A DNA stretch of 64,000 nt from Cellulomonas wangsupingiae (lineage in GTDB: Bacteria; Actinomycetota; Actinomycetes; Actinomycetales; Cellulomonadaceae), in the NCBI RefSeq assembly GCF_024508275.1, contig NZ_CP101989.1, positions 2,356,001 through 2,420,000 on the forward strand. Reading direction: 5' to 3'. Made by a program: the position numbers and the translations under genes. Shown piece after piece: positions 52,186 through 64,000 of the stretch; within the stretch, counting starts at the first letter, position 1, and every line of letters begins with the position of its first letter. The notes under the pieces are model-generated. The model ran no database searches and was not told where the DNA came from. It saw only the letters and a program-made list of their open reading frames with translations.

Positions 52186-53283
52186 ATGGCTCCTGCACCC
52201 GTACCTGCGCCCCCCGTTGCGACGCCCACCCGACAGACGGCCGCCACCGGCAGCTATCACGAGCTGTCGGCGAAGGTGCGCGAGGCAGGTCTGCTGGACC
52301 GCACACCCGGCTTCTACATCTCGCTGCTCGCGGGACTGACCACCGCTCTCGGTGGTCTCGTCGCCGCGTTCGTGCTGCTCGGGCACTCCTGGTGGCAGCT
52401 CGCCGTCGCCGCCGGCCTCGGCCTGGTGCTCACGCAGTTCGCGTTCGTCGCGCACGAGGCGTCGCACCGTCAGGTCCTGCTCACCGGCCCCGCCAACGAC
52501 CGCCTGGGCCGGATCCTGGCCAACGGCGTCGTCGGCATCAGCCACTCCTGGTGGATGACCAAGCACACCCGCCACCACGCGAACCCCAACCGCGTCGGCA
52601 AGGACCCGGACATCGAGTGGGACACCGTGTCCTTCCTCGAGGAGGACGCCGCCAAGCAGCGCGGTCTCATGGCCGCGATCACGCGCCGCCAGGGCTGGCT
52701 CTTCTTCCCGCTGCTGACGCTCGAGGGCGTGAACCTGCACGTCCTGGCGTTCAAGAGCCTGCTCGCGAGCCCGCCGTCGCGGATGCGCACCGTCGAGCTC
52801 GTGATGATCACGGCCCGGCTGAGCATCTACGTCGCCCTGGTCGTCTGGGCGCTCCCCCTCGGCATGGCCGCGGCGTTCCTCGCCGTGCAGCTCGCCGTCT
52901 TCGGCGTCTACATGGGCGCGTCGTTCGCCCCCAACCACAAGGGCATGGCGATCATCCCGGCGGACAGCCGGCTCGACTTCCTGTCCAAGCAGGTCCTCAC
53001 GTCGCGCAACATCAACGGCGGCATGACGGTCACGATGCTCATGGGCGGCCTCGACGCGCAGATCGAGCACCACCTCTTCCCGAGCATGCCGCGGCCCCAC
53101 CTGGCCCGCGCCCGCCGCATGGTGCGCGAGCACTGCGAGAGCGTCGGCATGCCGTACACGGAGACCTCGCTCGTGCGCTCCTACGTCCTCGTCGTCCAGT
53201 ACCTCAACCGCGTCGGCCTGGCCGCCCGCGACCCCTTCGACTGCCCCATGGTCCAGCGGTACCGCCCGCGCTCGACGCGCTGA
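52186..53283 (+). CDS. Membrane fatty acid desaturase
   Basis: A 365-residue di-iron desaturase that introduces a cis double bond into acyl chains of lipids or CoA esters. The three His boxes are HEASH (near 92), HTRHH (near 127) and QIEHHLFPSMPR (near 287). Hydrophobic segments are arranged in two pairs, as in integral-membrane desaturases. The N-terminal 20 residues are proline-rich. Electron donors are not encoded nearby. Regulation by an unlinked repressor is suggested by the palindrome upstream. Confidence 0.94.
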   Translation: MAPAPVPAPPVATPTRQTAATGSYHELSAKVREAGLLDRTPGFYISLLAGLTTALGGLVAAFVLLGHSWWQLAVAAGLGLVLTQFAFVAHEASHRQVLLTGPANDRLGRILANGVVGISHSWWMTKHTRHHANPNRVGKDPDIEWDTVSFLEEDAAKQRGLMAAITRRQGWLFFPLLTLEGVNLHVLAFKSLLASPPSRMRTVELVMITARLSIYVALVVWALPLGMAAAFLAVQLAVFGVYMGASFAPNHKGMAIIPADSRLDFLSKQVLTSRNINGGMTVTMLMGGLDAQIEHHLFPSMPRPHLARARRMVREHCESVGMPYTETSLVRSYVLVVQYLNRVGLAARDPFDCPMVQRYRPRSTR

Positions 53284-53361
53284 CCCGCGCGTGGCGCCCG
53301 GTGTGGGGCGCCGCACAGGATCTGCACAGGTCCCGCCGAGAACCCACCCGCCGAGCAGCCC

Positions 53362-53391
53362 CCGTCCCACCGCACCGCCGCGGTGGGATGG
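53362..53391. terminator. Hairpin before the DUF817 start codon
   Basis: A 12-base-pair stem with one G-U pair and an ACCGCC loop ends five bases before the DUF817 ATG. It may terminate desaturase transcription, or it may mask the ribosome site of the DUF817 gene in read-through messages. Confidence 0.5.
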
Positions 53392-53395
53392 GGGG

Positions 53396-54304
53396 ATGCT
53401 CCGCGACCTGCGCCTGACGCTCCCCCGAGCCGGTGCGCGCGAGCTCACGATCGTCGAGGAACGCATCGACGCGTGGGCTCGCGGCCGTCTCGCGCTCGTG
53501 CCCGGGAGCCGGGCGCACGCGTGGCTGGTCGAGCTCGTGGTCTTCGTCCTCAAGCAGGGCTGGGCCTGCCTGTTCGGCGGTGCGCTGCTCACCTTGCTGC
53601 TCGCGGCCCGGTTCTGGTACCCCGAGTCCGCGTCGCTCGCCCGCAACGACGCGCTCACCCTCGCCGCGCTCGGGCTGCAGGTCCTCATGCTGGCCACGCG
53701 CCTGGAGACCGTCCGCGAGATGCGCGTGGTGCTGCTCTTCCACCTCGTCGGCACCGCGATGGAGCTGTTCAAGACGGACGCGGGCTCGTGGTCGTACGCC
53801 GCCGAGGGCGTCCTGCGCGTGGGCGACGTGCCGCTGTTCTCCGGGTTCATGTACGGCGCCGTCGGGTCGTACCTCGTGCGCGTGTTCCGGATCTTCGAGC
53901 TGCGCTTCGACCGTCACCCGCGCCGATGGGTGACCGCCGCGCTGGCCGTGGGCATCTACGCCAACTTCTTCACGCACCACTGGGTCGCCGACGCCCGTTG
54001 GGTCCTGCTCGCCGCCGTCGTGGCGGTGTACGGACGTACGGTCATGCACTTCCGCGTCCACGCGGCCCGCCTGCGCATGCCGCTGCTCCTCGCGTTCACC
54101 CTGGTCGCCGCGTTCATCTGGGTCGCCGAGAACCTGGCGACCTTCGCGGGCGCCTGGCTCTACCCCTCGCAGGTGGACGGGTGGCACGTCGTCGGGGGCA
54201 CCAAGCTCGTCTCGTGGTTCCTGCTGATGATCGTCTCGGTCGTGCTCGTGACCTGGGTGTACCCGCCCCGCCCCCCGGACGGCGCGGGCGCCGTCACGCG
54301 ATGA
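53396..54304 (+). CDS. DUF817 family membrane protein
   Basis: A 302-residue protein with about seven hydrophobic helices and the DUF817 landmarks: ELVVFVLKQGWACLFGG, TRLETVREMRVVLLFHLVGTAMELFKT, LFSGFMYGAVGSYLVR and WYAN-type FFTHH near the middle. Function unknown. The last helix group ends with VTWVYPPRPP. Its stop overlaps the convergent ligase stop by 11 bases. A GGGGGG run before the ATG is the only ribosome-site-like sequence. Confidence 0.85.
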   Translation: MLRDLRLTLPRAGARELTIVEERIDAWARGRLALVPGSRAHAWLVELVVFVLKQGWACLFGGALLTLLLAARFWYPESASLARNDALTLAALGLQVLMLATRLETVREMRVVLLFHLVGTAMELFKTDAGSWSYAAEGVLRVGDVPLFSGFMYGAVGSYLVRVFRIFELRFDRHPRRWVTAALAVGIYANFFTHHWVADARWVLLAAVVAVYGRTVMHFRVHAARLRMPLLLAFTLVAAFIWVAENLATFAGAWLYPSQVDGWHVVGGTKLVSWFLLMIVSVVLVTWVYPPRPPDGAGAVTR

Positions 54305-55730
54305 CCTCGGCGGGCTGCAGCGCGGACTTGTCCGGCTTGCCGCTCGGTGCCAGCGGGACGCCGTCGACGACGCTCACGGTGCGCGGGACGGCACGCGCAC
54401 CGAGGACCCGCGCGACGTGCGCCCGCAGGGCGCCGGGGTCCGGCGTGCGCCCCGCCGCGGGCACGACCCACGCGTGCACGGCCTCGCCGGTCGTGTCGTC
54501 GGGGCGGCCCGTGACGTAGGCCTCGGCGACCGCCGGGTCCTGCGCCAGCACCCGTTCGACGGCGCCGGCGTGCACGAGCTGCGCGTCCACGATCACGACG
54601 TCCCGGGCCCGGCCCCGCAGGTGGACGTACCCGGCGGGGTCGACGTCCCCGAGGTCGCGCGTGCGCACCCACCCGTCGACGAAGACGTCGGCGGACTCCT
54701 GCGGGTCGTCCCAGTACCCCTGCGCCTGTGCGCCGGTGCGCACCCACAGCTCCCCGTCGTCGACCCGCACCTCCACGGCGGCCGGGGGCCGGCCCACCGA
54801 CGCGAGGACGGCCGGGTCGGCGAGCATCTCGTCGGGCGTGGCCATCGCGATCATGCCGGTCTCGGTCTGCCCGTAGCCGTGGAAGACGACCGGGCCCAGG
54901 ACGTCGAGCGCCTCGGCCAGGCGTACGGGCTCGAGCGGCGACCCGGAGACGATCAGCGCTCGCAGCGTCGACAGGTCGCGCGGGTGCTCGCGCTGCGCGC
55001 GCACCAGCTGGTGCAGCCGCCCGACGGTGATGACGCTCGCGGTCGCCCGGTGCCGGGTGAGGGCGTCGGGGAACCCCGGCGGTCGCGCCGCGACCAGGAC
55101 GCCGCCCGCGGCCAGCGTCAGCACGCCGTACTCGAGCATCACCTGGCTGCCGAGCGTCCCGAACACGAGGTAGCGCTGCAGCCGGGGCGCGAGCGCGGCG
55201 ACAGCGGGCGGCCACCGGTCGGGGTGGGCGGCCCACGCGGCGCTCATCGCCGCGTACGACTCGACGCACCCCTTCGGGCGTCCGCTCGTGCCGCTGGTCC
55301 ACGTGACACGGGCGACGCCGGCGGGCTGGCCCGCCGCCACGACGGACGTCACCGGCGGGCACGACAGGAGGTCCGCGAGGCGGTCCTCGTCGACGACGAG
55401 CGCGACGTCGGCACGGGAGAGCAGGTCCGTCCTGTGCTGCGGCGTGAGGAGAGGCGGCACCGCGCACACCCGCGCACCCACGGCGAACGACCCCACGGTG
55501 ACGGCGAACGCCTCCGGTGACACCCCGAGGTCGAGCGCGACCCCGACACCCGGGCCGACGCCGGCCGCACGCAGCCCTGCGACGGCACGCGCCACCGCCT
55601 CGAGCATCTGGCCCGCCGCGACGACGCGGTCGCCGTCCTCGAACACCGGCCGGTCGGGGTCCCGGGCCAGCAGGTCGAGCACGGGCTGCGGCCAGAGAGG
55701 CGCCGTGCCGTGCGTGACGTCGTCGTCCAT
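54294..55730 (-). CDS. Class I adenylate-forming acyl-CoA ligase-like enzyme
   Basis: A 478-residue AMP-forming enzyme. The phosphate loop is VTWTSGTSGRPKGCVES, the substrate/ATP motif GYGQTETG, and the hinge TRDLGDVDPAGYVHLRGRARD; the C-terminal Lys is in APSGKPDKSAL. It is shorter than 4-coumarate-CoA ligases (about 540) in the N-terminal domain. It is divergent from the ammonia-lyase operon and shares a 62-base promoter region, so I infer it activates the lyase product or a later acid. No carrier protein gene is nearby. The acid is unproven. Confidence 0.88.
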   Translation of the reverse strand: MDDDVTHGTAPLWPQPVLDLLARDPDRPVFEDGDRVVAAGQMLEAVARAVAGLRAAGVGPGVGVALDLGVSPEAFAVTVGSFAVGARVCAVPPLLTPQHRTDLLSRADVALVVDEDRLADLLSCPPVTSVVAAGQPAGVARVTWTSGTSGRPKGCVESYAAMSAAWAAHPDRWPPAVAALAPRLQRYLVFGTLGSQVMLEYGVLTLAAGGVLVAARPPGFPDALTRHRATASVITVGRLHQLVRAQREHPRDLSTLRALIVSGSPLEPVRLAEALDVLGPVVFHGYGQTETGMIAMATPDEMLADPAVLASVGRPPAAVEVRVDDGELWVRTGAQAQGYWDDPQESADVFVDGWVRTRDLGDVDPAGYVHLRGRARDVVIVDAQLVHAGAVERVLAQDPAVAEAYVTGRPDDTTGEAVHAWVVPAAGRTPDPGALRAHVARVLGARAVPRTVSVVDGVPLAPSGKPDKSALQPAEVIA

Positions 55731-55737
55731 GCCGACG

Positions 55738-55743
55738 AAACTA
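55738..55743 (-). promoter_or_regulatory. -10 element of the acyl-CoA ligase gene (TAGTTT)
   Basis: TAGTTT on the minus strand is seven bases from the ATG at 55730. Confidence 0.55.
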
Positions 55744-55751
55744 GGTGACCC

Positions 55752-55771
55752 ATCTCACATAGTTTTGAGAT
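55752..55771. promoter_or_regulatory. Candidate operator between the ligase and ammonia-lyase genes
   Basis: ATCTCA (55752-55757) and TGAGAT (55766-55771) form an inverted repeat around an eight-base A/T-rich spacer. It is centred between the two outward-facing -10 elements, so one protein could govern both directions. Confidence 0.48.
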
Positions 55772-55779
55772 CAACTACC

Positions 55780-55785
55780 TACCGT
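55780..55785 (+). promoter_or_regulatory. -10 element of the ammonia-lyase operon (TACCGT)
   Basis: TACCGT ends seven bases before the ATG at 55793. Confidence 0.55.
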
Positions 55786-55792
55786 CGGGCCC

Positions 55793-57301
55793 ATGAGAGC
55801 CCGCGCCGCGCTGACGACACGCGTCGACCTCGCCGCCCCTCTGCGGACCCACCACCTGGTGGCCGCCGCCGGCCCGGTCGACGTGGTCGTGCCGCTCGAG
55901 GCACGCGAGCGCACCGGCGCGGCGCGGGCCCTCCTCGACACGGCCGTCGCCGACGACCGCGCGGTGTACGGGCGCACCACGGGGTTCGGCGCCCTGGTCG
56001 GGTTCCGGGGGCGCGCCGACGGCGGGGACCAGGCGGACAACACCCTCGCGCACCTCGGCGCCGGGCAGGGGCCGACGCTGCCGCCGGGGCTGGTCCGGGC
56101 GACGGTGCTGGTCAGGGCCCGTTCGCTCGCGCAGGGCGCGTCGGGCGTGGGGCCGCACGTCCTCGAGGCGCTCGCCGCGATGCTCGCCACGACGTTCACC
56201 CCCGTCGTCCCACGCTGGGGGTCCGTGGGCGCGAGCGGCGACCTCGTGCCCCTGGCCGCCGTCGCCGCAGCCCTGCGCGGAGACGGCGAGGCGGACGTCG
56301 ACGGACGGCGCATGCCCGCGCGCGACGCGCTCGACGCCGCCGGGCTGACCCCCCTCCGGCTCGACGGCCGCGACGCCCTGGCGCTGGTCAACGGCACGTC
56401 GCTGACGACCGCCGCCCTCGCACTCGCGCTGGACGGCATCGACCGGGCGCACGGCGCGCTCGTGCGCCTGGCGTGCCTGCTGACCGACCTGCTCGGCTGC
56501 GACGGTCAGTTCACCGACGCCGACCTGCTCGAGCGGTACGCCCACCCGGGCGCCGCCGCCGTGGGCGCCCGCATGCGCGAGCTCCTGACGGGCCTGCGCC
56601 CGTCGGGCACCCGTCCGCTGCAGGAGCCCTACTCCATCCGGTGCACGCCGCAGCTCCTGGGCGCCGCCCACGACGCGCTGCGGTACGTCGGGGACGTGGT
56701 CGCGGCCGACCTCGCGGGGGTCAGCGACAACCCGCTGCTGTTCCCCCAGGACGACAAGATCGTGCACGGCGGCAACTTCTTCGGTCAGCCGGCGGCGTTC
56801 GCGGCCGACCTGCTCGCGCTCGTCACCGCCCAGCTCGGGAACCTCGCCGAGCGCCAGCTCGACCTGCTCGTGGACCCCACCCGCAACGGCGACCTCCCGC
56901 CCATGCTCGCCGCGGGCCCCGGACGCCAGCACGGGGTCCAGGGCGTGCAGCTCGCGTCCACGGCGCTGGTCGCCGAGCTCCGCCGGGACGCGACGCCGGC
57001 GAGCATGCAGTCGCTGTCGACGAACCTGCGCACGCAGGACGTCGTCCCCTTCGGCACGCAGGCGGCGCTGCGCTCGCTCGACGGCGTCGAGGTCCTGCGC
57101 CTGCTCGTCGGCTCGCTCGCGCTCGGCCTGCGCCAGGCCGCCCACGTCGGCGCCCGACCCCCCACCACGTCGGCGTCAGGCGCGCTGCTGTCCGCGCTCG
57201 CCGCCGCCGTCCGTCCCGTCGACCCCGACCGCCCGCTCGCGCGGGACGTGCGCGCGTGCGCGCACGTCCTGCTGCCCACAGATCCGGAGGACCAGCCGTG
57301 A
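55793..57301 (+). CDS. Aromatic amino acid ammonia-lyase (tyrosine-type selectivity pair)
   Basis: A 502-residue HAL/PAL/TAL enzyme that eliminates ammonia from an aromatic amino acid. Ala147-Ser148-Gly149 in SVGASGDLVPL cyclises into the MIO cofactor. Tyr59 in VYGRTTGFG is the catalytic tyrosine; NGTS, QEPYSIRC and GVSDNPL are further family motifs. The selectivity position reads NTLAHLGAG (His87-Leu88). Rhodobacter tyrosine ammonia-lyase also has His-Leu there, whereas Phe marks phenylalanine lyases and Ser-His histidine lyases. I therefore favour tyrosine to 4-coumarate. No hut genes are near, arguing against histidine catabolism. Confidence 0.88.
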   Translation: MRARAALTTRVDLAAPLRTHHLVAAAGPVDVVVPLEARERTGAARALLDTAVADDRAVYGRTTGFGALVGFRGRADGGDQADNTLAHLGAGQGPTLPPGLVRATVLVRARSLAQGASGVGPHVLEALAAMLATTFTPVVPRWGSVGASGDLVPLAAVAAALRGDGEADVDGRRMPARDALDAAGLTPLRLDGRDALALVNGTSLTTAALALALDGIDRAHGALVRLACLLTDLLGCDGQFTDADLLERYAHPGAAAVGARMRELLTGLRPSGTRPLQEPYSIRCTPQLLGAAHDALRYVGDVVAADLAGVSDNPLLFPQDDKIVHGGNFFGQPAAFAADLLALVTAQLGNLAERQLDLLVDPTRNGDLPPMLAAGPGRQHGVQGVQLASTALVAELRRDATPASMQSLSTNLRTQDVVPFGTQAALRSLDGVEVLRLLVGSLALGLRQAAHVGARPPTTSASGALLSALAAAVRPVDPDRPLARDVRACAHVLLPTDPEDQP

Positions 57302-58851
57302 CCCTCGACCACCTCGTCATCGGAGCGGGCCCCGCCGGCCTGCAGCTCGGCGCGCTGCTGGAGGCCGACGGGCGTCGCGACTACCTCGTCGTCGAGCGCG
57401 CCGACGTGCCCGGCTCGTTCTTCACGCGGTACCCGCGGCACCGCCGGCTCATCTCGATCAACAAGCCCCGCACGGGCAGCGACGACCCCGAGCTGAACCT
57501 GCGTCTCGACTGGAACTCGCTGCTGAGCGACGACCCCGACCTGCGGTTCACGCGCTACACCGACCGCTACTTCCCCGACGCCGACGTGATGGTCCGCTAC
57601 CTCGCGGACTTCGCGGAGCGGTCGAAGGTGCGGGTGCGGTACGGCGCGGCGGTGACCCGGGTCTCCCGCCGTGACGACGTGTTCGAGGTCGAGGTCGGCG
57701 GCGACACGCTGACCGCGCGCTCGGTCGTCGTCGCCACCGGTGTCAGCCGCACGCACCGGCCCCCGATCCCCGGGTTCGAGCTGGCCGAGGGCTACGACAC
57801 CATGTCGGTCGACCCGGCCGACTACCTCGACCAGCGCGTCCTCATCATCGGCAAGGGCAACTCCGCCTTCGAGACGGCCGACGCCCTCATGGAGACCACG
57901 ACGGTCATCCACGTCGCCGGCCCGGAGTCGGTCCACCTGGCGTGGCGCACGCACTACGTCGGTCACCTGCGCGCGGTGAACAACAACTTCCTCGACACCT
58001 ACCAGCTGAAGTCCGCCAACGCGGTGCTCGACGGCACGGTCGAGCGGATCGAGCGCGACGGCGAGGGCCTGGCGGTCACGTTCCGGTTCACGCGGGCCGA
58101 CGAGACGCGCGTGCTGCACTACGACCGCGTGCTCGCGTGCACGGGCTTCGCGTTCGACGCCTCGGTGTTCGACGCGTCGTGCCGGCCGGCCCTCGCGATC
58201 GGCGGCCGCTTCCCGGCGCAGACCGACGAGTGGGAGTCGGTGGACGTCCCCGGCCTGTTCTTCGCCGGGACGATCAGCCAGCAGCGTGACTTCCGGCGCT
58301 CCACCAGCGGTTTCGTCCACGGGTTCCGCTACGGGGCGCGCGCGCTGCACCGGGTCCTGGCACGCCGGTACGCCGGCGAGCCGTGGCCGTCGGTCCCCGT
58401 CGACGCGACACCGGCCGCGATCACGGCGGCGGTCGTGGCGCGGGTCAACCGCACGTCCGCGCTCTGGCAGCAGTTCGGCGTGCTCGCCGACGTGGTGACC
58501 GTCACCGGCGGGCAGGCGCGCTACCACGACGAGGTCCCCGTCGACTACCACGCACGCGTCGGGCTGGGGCCCGACGGCCACGACGACGACGCGTTCGTCG
58601 TCACCCTCGAGTACGGGCCGGACCACGACAAGGTCGACCCGTTCGACGCGACCGTGAGCCGCATCGCGCAGGACACCCCGGGGGTCGCGCACGACGCCGC
58701 CTACCTGCACCCCGTCGTCCGGCACCACCGGCACGGCGAGCACGTGGCGACCCACCACGTCGCGGAGAACCTCGAGAACCGGTGGGACCGCCCCGACGCG
58801 CACGTCGCGCCGCTCGAGGCGTTCGTCGCGGGCGCCCTGGCGGGGGACTGA
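57298..58851 (+). CDS. Flavin-dependent monooxygenase-like FAD/NAD(P) oxidoreductase
   Basis: The 517-residue protein has the FAD motif VIGAGPAGLQLGA at the N-terminus and a second nucleotide motif, LIIGKGNSAFETADAL, for NAD(P) near residue 183. Between them is the conserved KPRTGSDDPELNLR loop. The C-terminal 150 residues (from about 365) have no flavin motif and may be a separate lid domain. Relatives are N- or Baeyer-Villiger-type hydroxylases and FOXRED2-like proteins. The start overlaps the lyase stop (GTGA). Reaction unknown; it likely acts on the lyase-derived compound. Confidence 0.85.
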   Translation: MTLDHLVIGAGPAGLQLGALLEADGRRDYLVVERADVPGSFFTRYPRHRRLISINKPRTGSDDPELNLRLDWNSLLSDDPDLRFTRYTDRYFPDADVMVRYLADFAERSKVRVRYGAAVTRVSRRDDVFEVEVGGDTLTARSVVVATGVSRTHRPPIPGFELAEGYDTMSVDPADYLDQRVLIIGKGNSAFETADALMETTTVIHVAGPESVHLAWRTHYVGHLRAVNNNFLDTYQLKSANAVLDGTVERIERDGEGLAVTFRFTRADETRVLHYDRVLACTGFAFDASVFDASCRPALAIGGRFPAQTDEWESVDVPGLFFAGTISQQRDFRRSTSGFVHGFRYGARALHRVLARRYAGEPWPSVPVDATPAAITAAVVARVNRTSALWQQFGVLADVVTVTGGQARYHDEVPVDYHARVGLGPDGHDDDAFVVTLEYGPDHDKVDPFDATVSRIAQDTPGVAHDAAYLHPVVRHHRHGEHVATHHVAENLENRWDRPDAHVAPLEAFVAGALAGD

Positions 58852-58852
58852 C

Positions 58853-59884
58853 ATGACACCGTCGCGCGAGCCCGAGCGCCGTGCGCGCGACGTGCTCGAC
58901 CCCGTGCACTTCGACGCCCTGGCCGGTGGCGCGGGCAGCGAGCGCACGCTGACGGGCAACGAGGACGCGTTCGTGCGTCGCCGGCTGCGGCCCCGGGTCC
59001 TGCGCGGGCCCGGGACGCCCGACCTGTCGACCCACCTGCCCGGCGCGCGGCTCGCCGCACCCGTCGTGGTGGCCCCGACGGCCTTCCACCGCCTCGCGCA
59101 CCGCGCCGGCGAGGTGGCGACCGGCGAGGGGGTGGCCGCCGCCCACGGCCTGCTGACCGTCAGCATGATGGCCACGACGGCCGTGGAGGACATCGCGGAG
59201 ACCGGCGCCGCCCTGTGGTTCCAGCTCTACGTGCAGCCCGACCGCGCGTTCACCGCGGACGTGGTCGCGCGCGCCGAGGCCGCCGGGTGCAGGGCGATCG
59301 TCCTGACGGTCGACTCCCCCGTGCGCGGGCGCCACGTCCGCGACGAGCGCCACCGGTTCACGGACCTGCCCGCCGGCCTCGTGTGCGAGAACATGCGCGG
59401 GCGCGACGGGCGCCTGCGGGACCTCGTCGTCGACCCCGACCTGGGCTGGGACGCCGTCGCCTGGCTGCGGGGCACGACGTCGCTCCCGGTCCTGGTCAAG
59501 GGCGTGCTGCACCCGGCCGACGCACGCCTCGCCGTCGAGCACGGCGTCGACGGCGTCGTGGTCTCGAACCACGGCGGGCGGCAGCTGGACGGCGCGCTGG
59601 CCACGCTGGACGCCCTGCCGGCCGTCGTCGACGCCGTGGCGGGCCGCGTCCCGGTGCTGCTCGACGGCGGCGTGCGCAGCGGGGTCGACGCGCTCGTCGC
59701 GCTCGCGCTGGGCGCGGACGCCGTCATGGTGGGCCGCCCGGTGCTGTGGGGGCTGGCGCTGTCGGGGGCCGACGGCGTGCGGGCCGTGCTCGACGACCTC
59801 GCCGACGCACTCGCCCACGCGATGGCGCTCGCCGGCGCGCACCGCCCGGCCGACCTCACGCCGGACCTGGTGGTGGTCCCGTGA
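58853..59884 (+). CDS. FMN-dependent alpha-hydroxy-acid oxidase/dehydrogenase
   Basis: A 343-residue TIM-barrel flavoprotein of the lactate/mandelate/glycolate oxidase family. APTAFHRLAHRAGEVAT, WFQLYVQPDR, LVKGVLHPADA with the FMN Lys, SNHGGRQLDGA with the catalytic His, and DGGVRSG are all visible. Such enzymes oxidise 2-hydroxy acids to 2-oxo acids. A 2-hydroxy acid intermediate, such as a hydroxymandelate- or aryl-lactate-type compound, is conceivable here. It starts one base after the previous stop and overlaps the P450 gene by four bases. Confidence 0.9.
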   Translation: MTPSREPERRARDVLDPVHFDALAGGAGSERTLTGNEDAFVRRRLRPRVLRGPGTPDLSTHLPGARLAAPVVVAPTAFHRLAHRAGEVATGEGVAAAHGLLTVSMMATTAVEDIAETGAALWFQLYVQPDRAFTADVVARAEAAGCRAIVLTVDSPVRGRHVRDERHRFTDLPAGLVCENMRGRDGRLRDLVVDPDLGWDAVAWLRGTTSLPVLVKGVLHPADARLAVEHGVDGVVVSNHGGRQLDGALATLDALPAVVDAVAGRVPVLLDGGVRSGVDALVALALGADAVMVGRPVLWGLALSGADGVRAVLDDLADALAHAMALAGAHRPADLTPDLVVVP

Positions 59885-61221
59885 AGGTGTCCACGGTCGC
59901 GATCGGGGCGCTCGCCCTCGGGACGGTCGGCACGCTGCCCAGGTGGCTGCCGCGGGCCGTCGTGCGGCTGCGGGAACGGGTCTTCACGCGCGTCAACGGG
60001 ACCGAGGGCATCGCCGTGCCCGGCCCGCTGGTCCCGGCCGAGCACTTCGAGCGGGTGTACGCGGACCCCGCGGCCGACGGCCGCAGCGCCGGCGCGGGGC
60101 TGTCCGACCTCTTCTGGTACTGGCTGTCCCCCGGGCCCCACATGCACCAGGAGCACCTGGAGCCGGGTGAGCGGTACCGCACGGTCGCGCGCACGACGCG
60201 CCAGGTGCTCGCCGTGCGCCACGCGCGCAGCGACGAGCTGGCGACGGCCGCCGTGCGGCGCGCCCTGGACGCACTGCCCCCGGGTCGCACCACCCTCGTG
60301 CGGCTGCGGGACCTGATGATGCCCGTGTGGGCCGAGGTCTACCACGAGCTCGTCTTCGCCGAGCCGTGCCCACGCGAGGCCCGCGACCTCGTCGTGGCCA
60401 ACGCGGACGACGTCGTGACCGCCCTGAAGGGCACCGGCCTGCGGCACATGGACCGCCGCGACCGCCTCACGCAGTACCTGCGGCGCCGCGTCGAGGACGG
60501 GACGTGCCCCGTCGTCCTGCCGCCACCGTTCACGGCGCAGGAGACGGCCTGGTACCTCCAGGGTGCGTTCTTCAACACCGCGATCGTGCAGATGTCCGAG
60601 GCCGCGGCCCACCTGCTGCTGTGCGCGGGCGCGTACCCGCCGGCGCGCGACCAGCTCGACGACGACGACGCGCTCGACCGGATCGTCGACGAGACGCTGC
60701 GGGTGCACCCGCTGTTCGGTGTCGCGCACCGGATCACGTCCGCACCGATCGTCGTGGACGAGGACGTCACCCTGCCGACCGGGTCCGTCCTGCTCTTCAA
60801 CTACCTCGCCTACCAGCGCACGGGTGCCGCGGGCGACGATGCCTTCGACCCCGAGCGGTGGCGCACGCTGCGGCACCACGACGCACGGTTCATCCCGTTC
60901 GGCGTGACGGCCAACAGGGCCTGCCCGGCCCGCGGGTCCGCACCGGTCATGCTGCGCGCGGTGCTGCGCGAGGTGCTGCGCCGGTACGACGTCACCTCGA
61001 CGGCCGTGCACACCCGCTCGTTGCCCGATCGCGGACCCGCCCACCTCACGCCCGTCGGAGCCCTCGGGCCCGGTCGCGTGCGGCTCGCGGCGATGCGGGT
61101 GGGCGACCGCTGGGCCGACGTCGGGCGCTCGGTGCAGCAGCTCGTCCTCGGCACCTACATGGTCCTCGAGGCCCGTCGGATCAAACCCTGCACCACCTAC
61201 TTCGCGGAGGTCCGCGCATGA
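59881..61221 (+). CDS. Cytochrome P450 (membrane-associated, atypical haem loop)
   Basis: A 446-residue P450. DETLRVHP is the ExxR helix and FDPERW the PERF region. The haem loop is FGVTANRACPARG, so the ligand Cys is followed by Pro-Ala where most P450s have x-Gly. The I-helix reads GAFFNTAIVQMSEAA, also unusual. The N-terminal hydrophobic stretch (about residues 3-20) could associate with the membrane. No redox partner gene is present in the operon. It overlaps both neighbours by four bases. Role: oxidation of the cluster product, by inference. Confidence 0.88.
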   Translation: MKVSTVAIGALALGTVGTLPRWLPRAVVRLRERVFTRVNGTEGIAVPGPLVPAEHFERVYADPAADGRSAGAGLSDLFWYWLSPGPHMHQEHLEPGERYRTVARTTRQVLAVRHARSDELATAAVRRALDALPPGRTTLVRLRDLMMPVWAEVYHELVFAEPCPREARDLVVANADDVVTALKGTGLRHMDRRDRLTQYLRRRVEDGTCPVVLPPPFTAQETAWYLQGAFFNTAIVQMSEAAAHLLLCAGAYPPARDQLDDDDALDRIVDETLRVHPLFGVAHRITSAPIVVDEDVTLPTGSVLLFNYLAYQRTGAAGDDAFDPERWRTLRHHDARFIPFGVTANRACPARGSAPVMLRAVLREVLRRYDVTSTAVHTRSLPDRGPAHLTPVGALGPGRVRLAAMRVGDRWADVGRSVQQLVLGTYMVLEARRIKPCTTYFAEVRA

Positions 61222-62483
61222 CACCCGTCGAGCTGGCACCACGCTTCTTCCTCGCCGTCGTCGTGATCCTGGTCGTGTGCCGCGGCGTGTCCGCGCTCAT
61301 GCGCCGCGTCGGCCAGCCCCCCGTCGTCGGCGAGATGGTCGCGGGCGTCCTCCTGGGCCCCTCCCTGCTCGGCCTGCTCCTGCCGGCGGTGCAGGAGGCG
61401 CTCTTCCCCGACGAGCTGCGGCCCGTGCTGTACGTCGTCGGGCAGATCGGGCTCGTCCTGCTGATGTTCCACGCGGGGTACGCGTTCAGCACCCACCGCT
61501 CCGACGGCCTGGCACGGACGGCGGCCGCGGTGTCCCTCGGGGGCGTCGCAGCGCCCCTGCTGCTGGGGACCGCGCTCGTCCTCGTCGCGGCCGACCACGT
61601 GCCGCTGCGGCCCGACGGCGTGCCCGTCGGTGTCGTCGCGGCGTTCGTCGGCGTCGCGCTGGCGATCACGGCGTTCCCGATGCTCGCGCGCATCATCACC
61701 GAGCGGGGGCAGGCGGGCACCCGGCACGGGTCGATCGCCCTGGCCAGCGGCGCGGTCGACGACGTCGTGGCCTGGGTGCTGCTCGCGGGCGTCCTCGCGG
61801 TCGCCTCCGGCAGCCCCGGCCCCGCCCTGCTGACCGTGGGCGGCGCGCTGGTGTTCGTGGCCCTCGTGTGGTTCGTCGCGCGCCCGGGCATGCGGCGGCT
61901 CATGGCCACCACGCGCGTCGACGACCACGCACGGCTCATCGGCACGGTCGCGGTCCTGTTCGCCGCCGCGTGGTTCACCGACGAGATCGGCCTCTACGCG
62001 GTCTTCGGCGCGTTCGCGCTCGGGCTGGCGGTGCCGCGCGTGCCGGCGGCCGACCGGGTGGTCGCCGGGCTGACGCCCGTCACGGGGGTCCTCGTGCCGC
62101 TGTTCTTCACGTACTCGGGCCTCAACACGCAGTTCGGGCTGTTCACCGACCCGGCCGTGCTGCTGTTCGCGGTCGCCTGCGTGGTGCTCGCCGTCGTCGG
62201 CAAGTTCGGCGCCTGCTGGGCGGCCGCACGACGCCGCGGTGAGCCGCAGGGGGTCGCGCTGCGGGTCGCGTCGCTCATGAACGCGCGCGGGCTCATGCAG
62301 CTCATCGCCCTGAACATCGGGCTCGAGGCCGGGATCGTCGGGCCCGCGCTCTTCACCGTGCTGGTGCTCGTCGCGCTCGTGACGACGATCATGACGAGCC
62401 CGCTGCTGACCTGGGTGGAGCGTCGTCACCCCGCCGTCGAGCCGACGCCGGACGTCGGCGAGCCGGTCCGCGCGACGCTGTGA
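61218..62483 (+). CDS. Kef/CPA2-type cation:proton antiporter
   Basis: A 421-residue protein with 11-12 hydrophobic helices and the CPA2 signatures [17 protein letters not shown] and [13 protein letters not shown] (the Asp-Asp ion site). [19 protein letters not shown] marks the end of the transport domain. There is no C-terminal RCK/TrkA domain, so it may be unregulated or use another partner. It is the last gene of the ammonia-lyase operon by overlap. A role in efflux, pH balance or K+ movement during product formation is inference. Confidence 0.9.
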
Positions 62484-62530: not shown

Positions 62531-63199
62531 ATGTCCGGACGAACCCACCGGCTCCTCGTCGTCGAGGACGACCGGGAGCTGTGCGACACGCTGGCCGAGG
62601 TCCTCACCGACGAGGGCTACGTCGTCGACCAGGCCCGCGACGGTCACCGCGGCCTGCACCTCGCCCTCACGCGCCCGTACGACGTCCTCGTGGTCGACCG
62701 CCGGCTCCCCGCCGTCGACGGCCTCGACATGCTCGCCCGCCTGCGGTCACGGGCGGTCGGCGCCCGCGCCCTCGTGCTCACCGCGCTCGGCTCGGTCGCC
62801 GACCGCGTCGCCGGCCTGGACGCCGGCGCCGACGACTACCTGACCAAGCCGTTCGAGCTCGACGAGCTCAGTGCCCGCATCCGCGCGCTGTGCCGCCGCG
62901 TCGACGAGGCGGACACCCTGCTCCCCCTCGGCGAGGGTGCCATCGACCTGGTGACGCGGCAGGCGGTGCTCGCCGACGGCACCCGGGTGGACCTGTCGGC
63001 ACGCGAGCACGCGCTGCTGCGCGCGCTCGCCGACCGCCCCGCGGCGGTGCACACGCGCCACGAGCTGCGCCGCGCCGTCTTCGCGGACACCGAGGCGGCG
63101 TCGATCGTCGACACGTACGTGTACTACGTGCGCCGCAAGCTCGGCCGCACCGTCATCCGGACGGTGCACGGCGCCGGCTACCGGCTGGGCACCCTGTGA
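62531..63199 (+). CDS. OmpR/PhoB-family response regulator
   Basis: A 222-residue regulator. The receiver has an acidic pair (VVEDDREL), the phosphoacceptor Asp in [13 protein letters not shown], Thr in LTALGS and Lys in [11 protein letters not shown]. The C-terminal winged helix (about 130-220) ends in [12 protein letters not shown]. The ATG at 62531 is chosen from the -10 spacing; a GTG overlapping the antiporter stop would add 17 residues and seems less likely. It overlaps the sensor kinase gene (GTGA). Target genes are not known; the neighbouring cluster is a candidate. Confidence 0.94.
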
Positions 63200-64000
63200 G
63201 CGCCGGCACGCCCGAGGAGCGCGTGGTCCGGCGCGCCCGGCTGCGGATCGGCTCGCTCGTCGGCCTGGTCATCGCCGCGCTGCTCGGCCTCGCCGGTGCC
63301 ATCTCCTACGGGATCCTCCTGCACAGCCAGGAGCAGCAGATCGACGGCGAGCTGGCCTGGGGCGTCACCCACGGCACGATCGCCGGCCCGCCCGCGTGCA
63401 GCTGGATCTTCACGTACGACGGGTCCACGGTGGACACCGGCGTGGCGCCGCCACCGCCGGGGTTCCCGCTGCACGACGACCTCGTGGAGGTCGCCGCGAC
63501 GGGCGCGACCCAGGACGCGCGGATCGCGCGCGACGGCACCGTCTATCACGTGCGCACCGCGCGGCAGGGCGACGAGGTCGTGCAGGCCGTGTTCGACGCC
63601 CGGTTCCAGCTGGCCGACCGGCGGCACCTGCTCATCGCGTTCGGCGTCGCCGCCGGTGCCGGCGCGCTCGCGGCGGTCGTGGGGGGCGTCGTCGTCGGTC
63701 GCCGCGCCGTCGCACCGCTCGCCGAGGCGCTGCACCGCCAGCGCCGGTTCGTCGCCGACGCGAGCCACGAGCTGCGGACCCCGATCGCCCAGGTCCACGC
63801 CCGCGCGCAGCTGCTGGCCCGGCGCGCGCGGGCGGCGGACGACGACGCCCAGGCGCGGGACCTGGACCGGCTGGTGTCCACGACCCGCCGGCTCGGCGAG
63901 ATCGTCGACGAGCTGCTGCTCTCGGCGCGGCTCGCCGCGGCGCAGGGCACGGCCGCGACGCGCCCGGACAGCACGGCGGTGGACATCGCGGCGCTCGTCG
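63196..64000 (+). CDS. Sensor histidine kinase, N-terminal part (runs off window)
   Basis: 268 residues are visible. Two transmembrane helices (about 18-38 and 140-163) bracket a short extracellular sensor of about 100 residues with one Cys ([12 protein letters not shown]). A short HAMP-like linker leads to the HisKA H-box [15 protein letters not shown]. The catalytic ATPase domain lies beyond base 64000. It pairs with the overlapping regulator. Confidence 0.93.

Follow-up and report, generated by a model that had tools for sequence, protein, structure and literature searches.

A probable two-module gene cluster combining a putative tyrosine ammonia-lyase with an oxidative core in Cellulomonas wangsupingiae

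Introduction

What does an actinomycete make with an aromatic amino acid ammonia-lyase whose gene is packed together with those of a ligase, several oxidative enzymes and an antiporter? This question is raised by a locus in Cellulomonas wangsupingiae, on a 64-kb stretch of contig NZ_CP101989.1 (positions 2,356,001 to 2,420,000 of the forward strand; hereafter "the window", in whose numbering coordinates are given). An earlier note, made from the sequence by itself, had suggested that six genes here convert tyrosine to 4-coumarate, which would then be activated with coenzyme A (CoA) and oxidized three times. We compared the locus with its relatives, and consider it rather probable that it is a horizontally acquired, two-module cluster for a specialized metabolite, in which tyrosine would be converted to 4-coumarate and built into an oxidized small molecule under the control of a response regulator and sensor kinase. 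A 4-coumarate pathway without polyketide synthase (PKS) or nonribosomal peptide synthetase (NRPS) is the best reading of the locus. Gene content, gene order, co-occurrence, a shared promoter repeat, the active-site residues of the lyase and transfer into Cellulomonas all emerged from the comparison itself; from these we infer direct amide rather than CoA chemistry, and a role for each oxidase.

Results

Gene map of the unit

The unit consists of the following features.

54294..55730, minus strand: ACS, adenylate-forming ligase, closest in sequence to McbA-type amide-bond synthetases (Pfam AMP-binding, 130.8 bits)
55731..55792, no strand: divergent promoter region of 62 bp, common to ACS and TAL (from the sequence)
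55753..55770, no strand: predicted operator TCTCACATAGTTTTGAGA; family form TCTSAGA-N4-TCTGAGA, 11-bp period (from motif comparison)
55793..57301, plus strand: TAL, aromatic amino acid lyase of the 4-methylideneimidazole-5-one (MIO) type, with His87-Leu88, ASG at 147-149 and Gln415 (Pfam Lyase_aromatic, 426.8 bits)
57298..58851, plus strand: FMO1, FAD/NAD(P) flavoprotein with ~150 extra C-terminal residues (Pfam Pyr_redox_3, 163.9 bits; GTG start)
58853..59884, plus strand: LOX, FMN-dependent alpha-hydroxy-acid oxidase family (Pfam FMN_dh, 382.1 bits)
59881..61221, plus strand: P450 with N-terminal hydrophobic helix and atypical haem loop (FGVTANRACPAR) (Pfam p450, 42.5 bits)
61218..62483, plus strand: KEF, CPA2/Kef-type cation/proton antiporter, membrane domain only (Pfam Na_H_Exchanger, 173.5 bits)
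62531..63199, plus strand: RR, OmpR/PhoB-type response regulator, member of the conserved unit (receiver and Trans_reg_C)
63196..64000, then 497 bp beyond the window end, plus strand: HK, sensor histidine kinase of 433 aa in total (GTGA overlap with RR)

Coordinates and Pfam families bear out the six tightly joined genes of the earlier note: TAL and FMO1 overlap by GTGA, FMO1 and LOX are one base apart, and LOX/P450 and P450/KEF overlap by GTGA and ATGA, respectively. The ligase and the lyase do diverge from one promoter region, as it had said. The interval that it gave, 55731..62483, holds the five plus-strand genes and leaves out the ligase that it describes; its six-gene extent stands but misses RR, which starts 47 bases 3' of KEF, as well as HK and the promoter repeat. 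The closest named relatives of the cluster proteins are from Cellulomonas.

The conserved unit is larger than six genes

Loci were chosen by the P450 alone (the best 80 of 333, one genome per species; some, such as L058 and L081, are cut by contig ends). In the 80 loci, the P450 gene is adjoined by LOX in 79, FMO1 in 74 and KEF in 62. RR is present in 61, ACS in 50, TAL in 41 and a second flavoprotein gene, FMO2, mostly divergent from TAL, in 38. Because this gene order recurs across families, the unit is not a product of chance, and the earlier idea of a conserved multi-gene pathway is upheld. By the same comparison, RR and HK belong to the unit.

In 39 of the 80 loci, no TAL was present in the retrieved sequence, which covered up to 10 kb on either side and less in some cases. 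All TAL-bearing loci belong to a single supported clade of 43 P450s, which also takes in L067 (ligase, no TAL) and L058 (contig end). In a census of 394 genomes of the class, with E<=1e-30 for the P450 family and E<=1e-150 for the TAL clade, the former was found in 13 genomes, the latter in nine and both in seven, the window's genome included. The TALs of the two TAL-only genomes are of 53-56% identity and have no tblastn match to cluster partners alongside. One of these (locus L128, genome G510) has its 53% TAL near a different ligase, P450 and ketosynthase (by eye), and such neighbours mark it as another, unrelated kind of TAL cluster.

Two modules share a promoter repeat

The TAL promoter carries TCTCAGA-N4-TCTGAGA or a near copy (>=12/14) in 40 of 41 TAL loci, L064 being the exception. 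In many core-only loci, the FMO1 match is preceded at 50-80 bp by TCTGAGA-N4-TCTGAGA or a near copy. For scoring, we searched the 300 bp preceding the first gene for the repeat, requiring 12 of 14 matching positions and accepting either C or G as the fourth base; loci that lacked the gene in question or offered <200 bp of upstream sequence were left unscored, as were L127 and L128 (excluded beforehand). Among 85 first genes, 66 had both RR and the repeat, two RR alone, three the repeat alone and 14 neither. The corresponding numbers for the 38 first genes of loci without TAL were 22, 1, 1 and 14, that is, the repeat was present in 22/23 core-only loci with RR versus 1/15 without. Two of the three rows with the repeat alone, L125 and L126, are split TAL blocks with RR elsewhere in the genome; the third is L098. 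Loci lacking RR belong to several separate supported P450 clades (L078/L087/L092/L097; L088/L090/L100/L103/L110/L111; L101/L104/L106).

The unit is split in genomes G310 and G165. Here, TAL stands divergent from FMO2-ACS, and an ACS-FMO-LOX-P450-KEF-RR-HK block lies elsewhere, 3.7 Mb away in G310 (whose core ACS is a short match only) and on a separate contig in G165. Among Actinoplanes and relatives, several loci have 4-7 kb between the blocks (TAL-to-P450 distance). The earlier note had taken scattering of the genes in relatives as a sign against a common pathway. Scattering does occur, in these two of the seven genomes with both families; but both blocks are present in each, and all carry the repeat. 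The only exact matches to TCTSAKANNNNTCTGAGA in the whole of G165 are the two block sites. G310 has an exact copy at TAL and a copy with one mismatch at the core; at least some other places in that genome also match with one mismatch.

An 11-bp repeat suits an OmpR-type regulator, which makes the cluster's own RR the likely repeat-binding protein. Since the split blocks share the repeat, and since the repeat tracks RR in core-only loci, the two modules are apparently under one regulator. The two-module build and the shared repeat are new findings.

At 55780-55785 there is a TACCGT/TAGCGT-like -10 element, found in the same place in other TAL loci; with so little room before the start codon, the TAL mRNA may have almost no leader. 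In the outer segment of the kinase, a Cys-x-Trp motif is common to the window's HK and the L071 kinase (ACSW, GCTW) and is perhaps a signal-sensing site.

The lyase has residues of the tyrosine type

The closest solved relative of the lyase is 2o6y (224 bits), which we take to be the tyrosine ammonia-lyase of Rhodobacter sphaeroides. The His-Leu pairs of the two align, in agreement with the likeness seen earlier. This pair (87-88), the MIO-forming ASG triad (147-149) and Gln415 are each found in 49/49 clade rows (rows <400 aa were excluded from the alignment), and three rows of 53-58% identity likewise have His-Leu and Gln. Rows of <45% identity to the lyase (n = 27) have Ser-His, CSG and Glu in 23 cases each, as in histidine lyases; the remaining four have ASG and Gln, with HL (two) or FL (two). 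The window's genome, a single 4.1-Mb contig, has TAL as its sole PF00221 gene. A search of this genome for hutU, positive in 5/14 control genomes, found none. The tyrosine-type assignment, already proposed in the earlier note, is thus well supported by comparison, and tyrosine is the probable substrate. The His-Leu pair supports a tyrosine ammonia-lyase but does not define one, because the proven enzyme of Streptomyces clavuligerus has Tyr rather than His at the selectivity position (PMC8773403, in part).

In L066 (KL571244.1), a stretch like a Tn5 mosaic-end adapter lies within the TAL gene, directly before the TAL match starting at 2412; by its look, it is an assembly artefact.

The ligase resembles an amide-bond synthetase

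We compared the ligase with solved structures using phmmer. The scores were 190 bits for 6sq8, 187 for 6h1b, 158 for 8pyy, 155.5 for 8ppp and 64.8 for the 4-coumarate:CoA ligase 5bsw. We take 6sq8 and 6h1b to be McbA, the marinacarboline amide-bond synthetase; their records read "Fatty acid CoA ligase". At the position of the thioester-ligase His (A4), the window's ligase has Gln196, and 47 ligase rows have Gln (36), Ala (4), Met (3), Pro (2), Leu (1) or His (1). McbA, too, lacks the A4 His: the His implicated in catalysis by 4-chlorobenzoyl-CoA ligase is Asp201 in McbA (PMC6282839, in part). AcABS and ShABS are 54% and 51% identical with McbA (PMC10804368, in part), while the window's ligase was set against McbA by phmmer score only. 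It has two sequence features of the McbA type (nearest solved sequence and no A4 His) and neither of those of a 4-coumarate:CoA ligase (NCBIfam equivalog score and thioester-ligase His). CoA activation, as suggested before, becomes doubtful because the ligase is nearest McbA and not 4-coumarate:CoA ligase. With modest confidence, we favour a ligase that passes the acyl group directly to an amine or similar acceptor.

The strongest competing explanation, although an unlikely one, is that the ligase is an ordinary 4-coumarate:CoA ligase whose 4-coumaroyl-CoA is oxidized or else consumed by an enzyme encoded elsewhere, as happens when S. clavuligerus makes naringenin. There, tal is indeed unlinked to the chalcone synthase gene (PMC8773403, in part). 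The fold is common to all adenylate-forming enzymes, and the close ligase of L033 has His at A4; but the other 46 of the 47 rows do not, and 6sq8, 8pyy and 8ppp all score far above 5bsw. The best NCBIfam model, a FadD-type subfamily, gives 189.6 bits against a cut-off of 476, and no cut-off is reached among the best 25 of 96 matched models. Finally, neighbour open reading frame (ORF) clustering, which relied on crude gene calls, revealed no recurrent thioester-using gene.

The oxidative core

The Pfam score of the P450 is weak, 42.5 bits, and lies above the cut-off of 22.8; its predicted structure is a P450 fold. Glu271 and Cys348 are present in 44/44 rows of the family and Arg274 of the ExxR motif in 39/44, the five others (L088, L100, L103, L110 and L111, one clade) having Gln or Leu. 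The loci of this clade are also without RR and the repeat. The canonical haem loop FxxGxxxCx[AG] was found in none of the 44 rows, and alignment of the P450 to human P450s requires one additional residue before the Cys. The chemistry of this P450 family is worth testing, because the haem loop is non-canonical throughout and one clade lacks the ExxR Arg. The sole NCBIfam model that matches is ApyO, the P450 of the ribosomally synthesized and post-translationally modified peptide (RiPP) aminopyruvatide, at 47.5 bits and far under its cut-off of 525. The NRxCPA loop and the FFNT I-helix are reminiscent of the hydroperoxide-handling CYP74; we do not claim a CYP74-like enzyme, none being named among the best 60 of 247 profile matches or among 50 further matches listed.

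Residues 1-360 of FMO1 are predicted to have the two-dinucleotide flavoprotein fold type. The class B fingerprint of Baeyer-Villiger and flavin monooxygenases, FxGxxxHxxx(W/Y/F/D/P), was found in 0/41 FMO1 rows. FMO1 may resemble human FOXRED2; a literature search found no paper on FOXRED2 with Streptomyces.

Position 22 of LOX, which we take to be the carboxylate-binding Tyr of glycolate and lactate oxidases, is Phe in 50 rows and Tyr in 27; the window's copy, alone among 78 rows, has Ala. Position 161 is Arg in 51/78 rows and His in 14, and the window's copy has His161. We had suspected from Ala22 and His161 that substrate-carboxylate ligands were lost, and rejected this since the family keeps Phe or Tyr at 22 and mostly Arg at 161. 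By these residues, the active site of the family is largely ordinary, position 22 being odd only in the window's copy.

The antiporter scores 37.1 and 29.3 bits with the KefB and KefC equivalogs, whose cut-offs are 804 and 752. A Pfam scan gave PF00999 only, with no regulatory C-terminal domain.

Kef-type antiporters are linked to electrophile stress. This favours a second competitor, in which the lyase module merely supplies a protective or signalling phenolic acid and the FMO-LOX-P450-KEF core is a separate electrophile or peroxide stress system with a common regulator. The core does occur alone, for example in L087, L092 and L097, where its four genes form an island close to genes resembling ruvB, yajC and secD (by eye). 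We nevertheless hold this explanation to be improbable, slightly more so than CoA activation: seven of the nine TAL-clade census genomes also have the core, TAL and FMO1 overlap in the window, and the blocks still bear the same repeat when split.

Some neighbours of the core were noted by eye. A sulfotransferase-like gene (~229 aa) and a ligase recur beside it in L101, L104 and L106 (Acrocarpospora, where FMO1 is missing) and in L089, L102, L107 and L108. An amidohydrolase-like gene (~350 aa) lies between P450 and RR in the antiporter-less loci L080, L084 and L099. L087 (JOAA01000029.1, titled Rhodococcus rhodnii) and L097 (Kibdelosporangium aridum) have near-identical gene order over 20 kb and very close P450s; the Rhodococcus record is probably mislabelled or contaminated. 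The record of L142 (NZ_LT559118.1), entered in PLSDB as "plasmid I" of Nonomuraea gerenzanensis, is 11.85 Mb long and resembles a chromosome. Annotated plasmid records listed no features in the regions concerned.

Origin in Cellulomonas

The P450 tree places the window's P450 with those of two other Cellulomonas loci, L032 and L033, nested within Micromonosporaceae rows. The site in Cellulomonas genomes is flanked by map and yaaA (named by eye). Where the P450 lies between these two genes (four genomes: G000, G131, G552 and G554), their distances are 15.4, 15.5, 16.9 and 17.3 kb; they are 3.7-10.8 kb in nine genomes without it (G115, G102, G093, G140, G121, G041, G109, G127 and G545). In 12 more genomes of the sample, with both genes on one contig and P450 status unscored, the distance was 4.8-10.1 kb. 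The sample comprised 30 genomes measured by hand, five of which gave no distance; G148 has the P450 and lies outside it. The window's genome has one FMO gene only. These data fit the gain of a single block from Micromonosporaceae, FMO2 having been lost. Between map and the ligase, at 52186-54304, are genes that by eye resemble fatty-acid desaturase and DUF817 genes.

Discussion

In the explanation that we prefer, module 1 would consist of the lyase and the ligase, with the second flavoprotein added in most relatives. The lyase would deaminate tyrosine to 4-coumarate and the ligase adenylate the product, most likely passing the adenylated acid straight to an amine or similar nucleophile in the manner of McbA. 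Module 2 (FMO1, the FMN oxidase, the P450 and the antiporter) would make or oxidize the partner or the conjugate, while the antiporter may protect the cell or maintain ion balance. The two-component system would turn on both modules via the 11-bp-period repeats just 5' of the first gene.

A bolder version of this two-module explanation, which we put forward tentatively and rate below it, sees a widespread, undescribed class of actinobacterial pathways without PKS, NRPS or carrier proteins. A membrane-anchored P450 branch with altered haem loop, an FMN oxidase and an unusual flavoprotein would make a core molecule, which lineages would use alone or join to 4-coumarate via an amide-bond synthetase. 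One sensor-kinase system, responding to an extracellular signal, would control both through the shared repeat.

Several observations weigh against our preferred explanation. At E<=1e-150, a TAL-clade gene is missing from six of the 13 census genomes that have the core P450. Because of this, TAL looks like an add-on and the substrate or role of the core needs no lyase, and the "three oxidations" of coumarate in the earlier note are unproven. LOX is absent in L107 and L142, and FMO1 in 6/80 loci (L081 and L109 of these are cut by contig ends); with such losses, neither is strictly required. With only one FMO gene, Cellulomonas may make a different product from Micromonosporaceae. The sole ligase row with the A4 His, L033, is a Cellulomonas relative, and sequence nearness to McbA is no proof of amide synthesis. 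As for the operator, the window's own site is not significant alone (one match with <=2 mismatches versus 0.43 expected; 35/100 shuffles gave at least one), and C or G was allowed at the fourth base after the core-only sites had been seen. With a stricter threshold of 13/14, RR with repeat, RR alone, repeat alone and neither numbered 53, 15, 3 and 14 over all first genes, and 14, 9, 1 and 14 in TAL-less loci (p 0.0017); the operator statistics are uncorrected for relatedness. Where TAL and FMO1 are separated in Micromonosporaceae loci, FMO1 is preceded by no more than degraded copies of the repeat (9-11 of 14 positions, nine loci). Taken together, the interpretation given in the earlier note is partly supported.

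A histidine lyase in a catabolic operon is most improbable: hutH is the top NCBIfam model for the lyase (355.7 bits) and source records label some relatives histidine ammonia-lyase, but the cut-off of 539.15 is far off, the lyase has HL and Gln instead of the Ser-His pair and Glu, and we rejected histidine catabolism on these residues together with the lone PF00221 gene and the failure to find hutU in the genome.

Two known systems invite comparison. The Rhodobacter enzyme, which serves the chromophore of photoactive yellow protein, is likewise an MIO lyase with the His-Leu pair; the window's lyase is, in contrast, accompanied by a ligase, three oxidative enzymes, an antiporter and a two-component system. 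The naringenin pathway of S. clavuligerus (tal, ncs-ncyP) likewise leads from an actinobacterial tyrosine ammonia-lyase to 4-coumarate and involves a P450 (PMC8773403, in part). It employs a chalcone synthase, whereas none stood out as conserved beside the cluster in neighbour-ORF clustering. Within 12 kb of the TAL-like gene (58%) on S. clavuligerus pSCL4, nothing matches FMO, LOX or P450, and ligases reach 29-31% only. A tyrosine ammonia-lyase annotated in Cellulomonas fimi serves merely as a BLAST reference in the pertinent part of PMC11205022. No description of the cluster was found in the titles and abstract starts of open-licence literature, which is weak evidence.

The pathway family is real, widely conserved, with close copies of the cluster in many soil actinobacteria, and, as far as literature searches reached, undescribed. 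Core-enzyme-based mining may overlook it, because it has no PKS or NRPS genes. A conserved pathway in many genera, with no product assigned as far as we searched, is a direct target for product discovery. The shared repeat provides a tag that predicts the regulon, tells which genomes should co-express both modules and offers a handle for activating the cluster.

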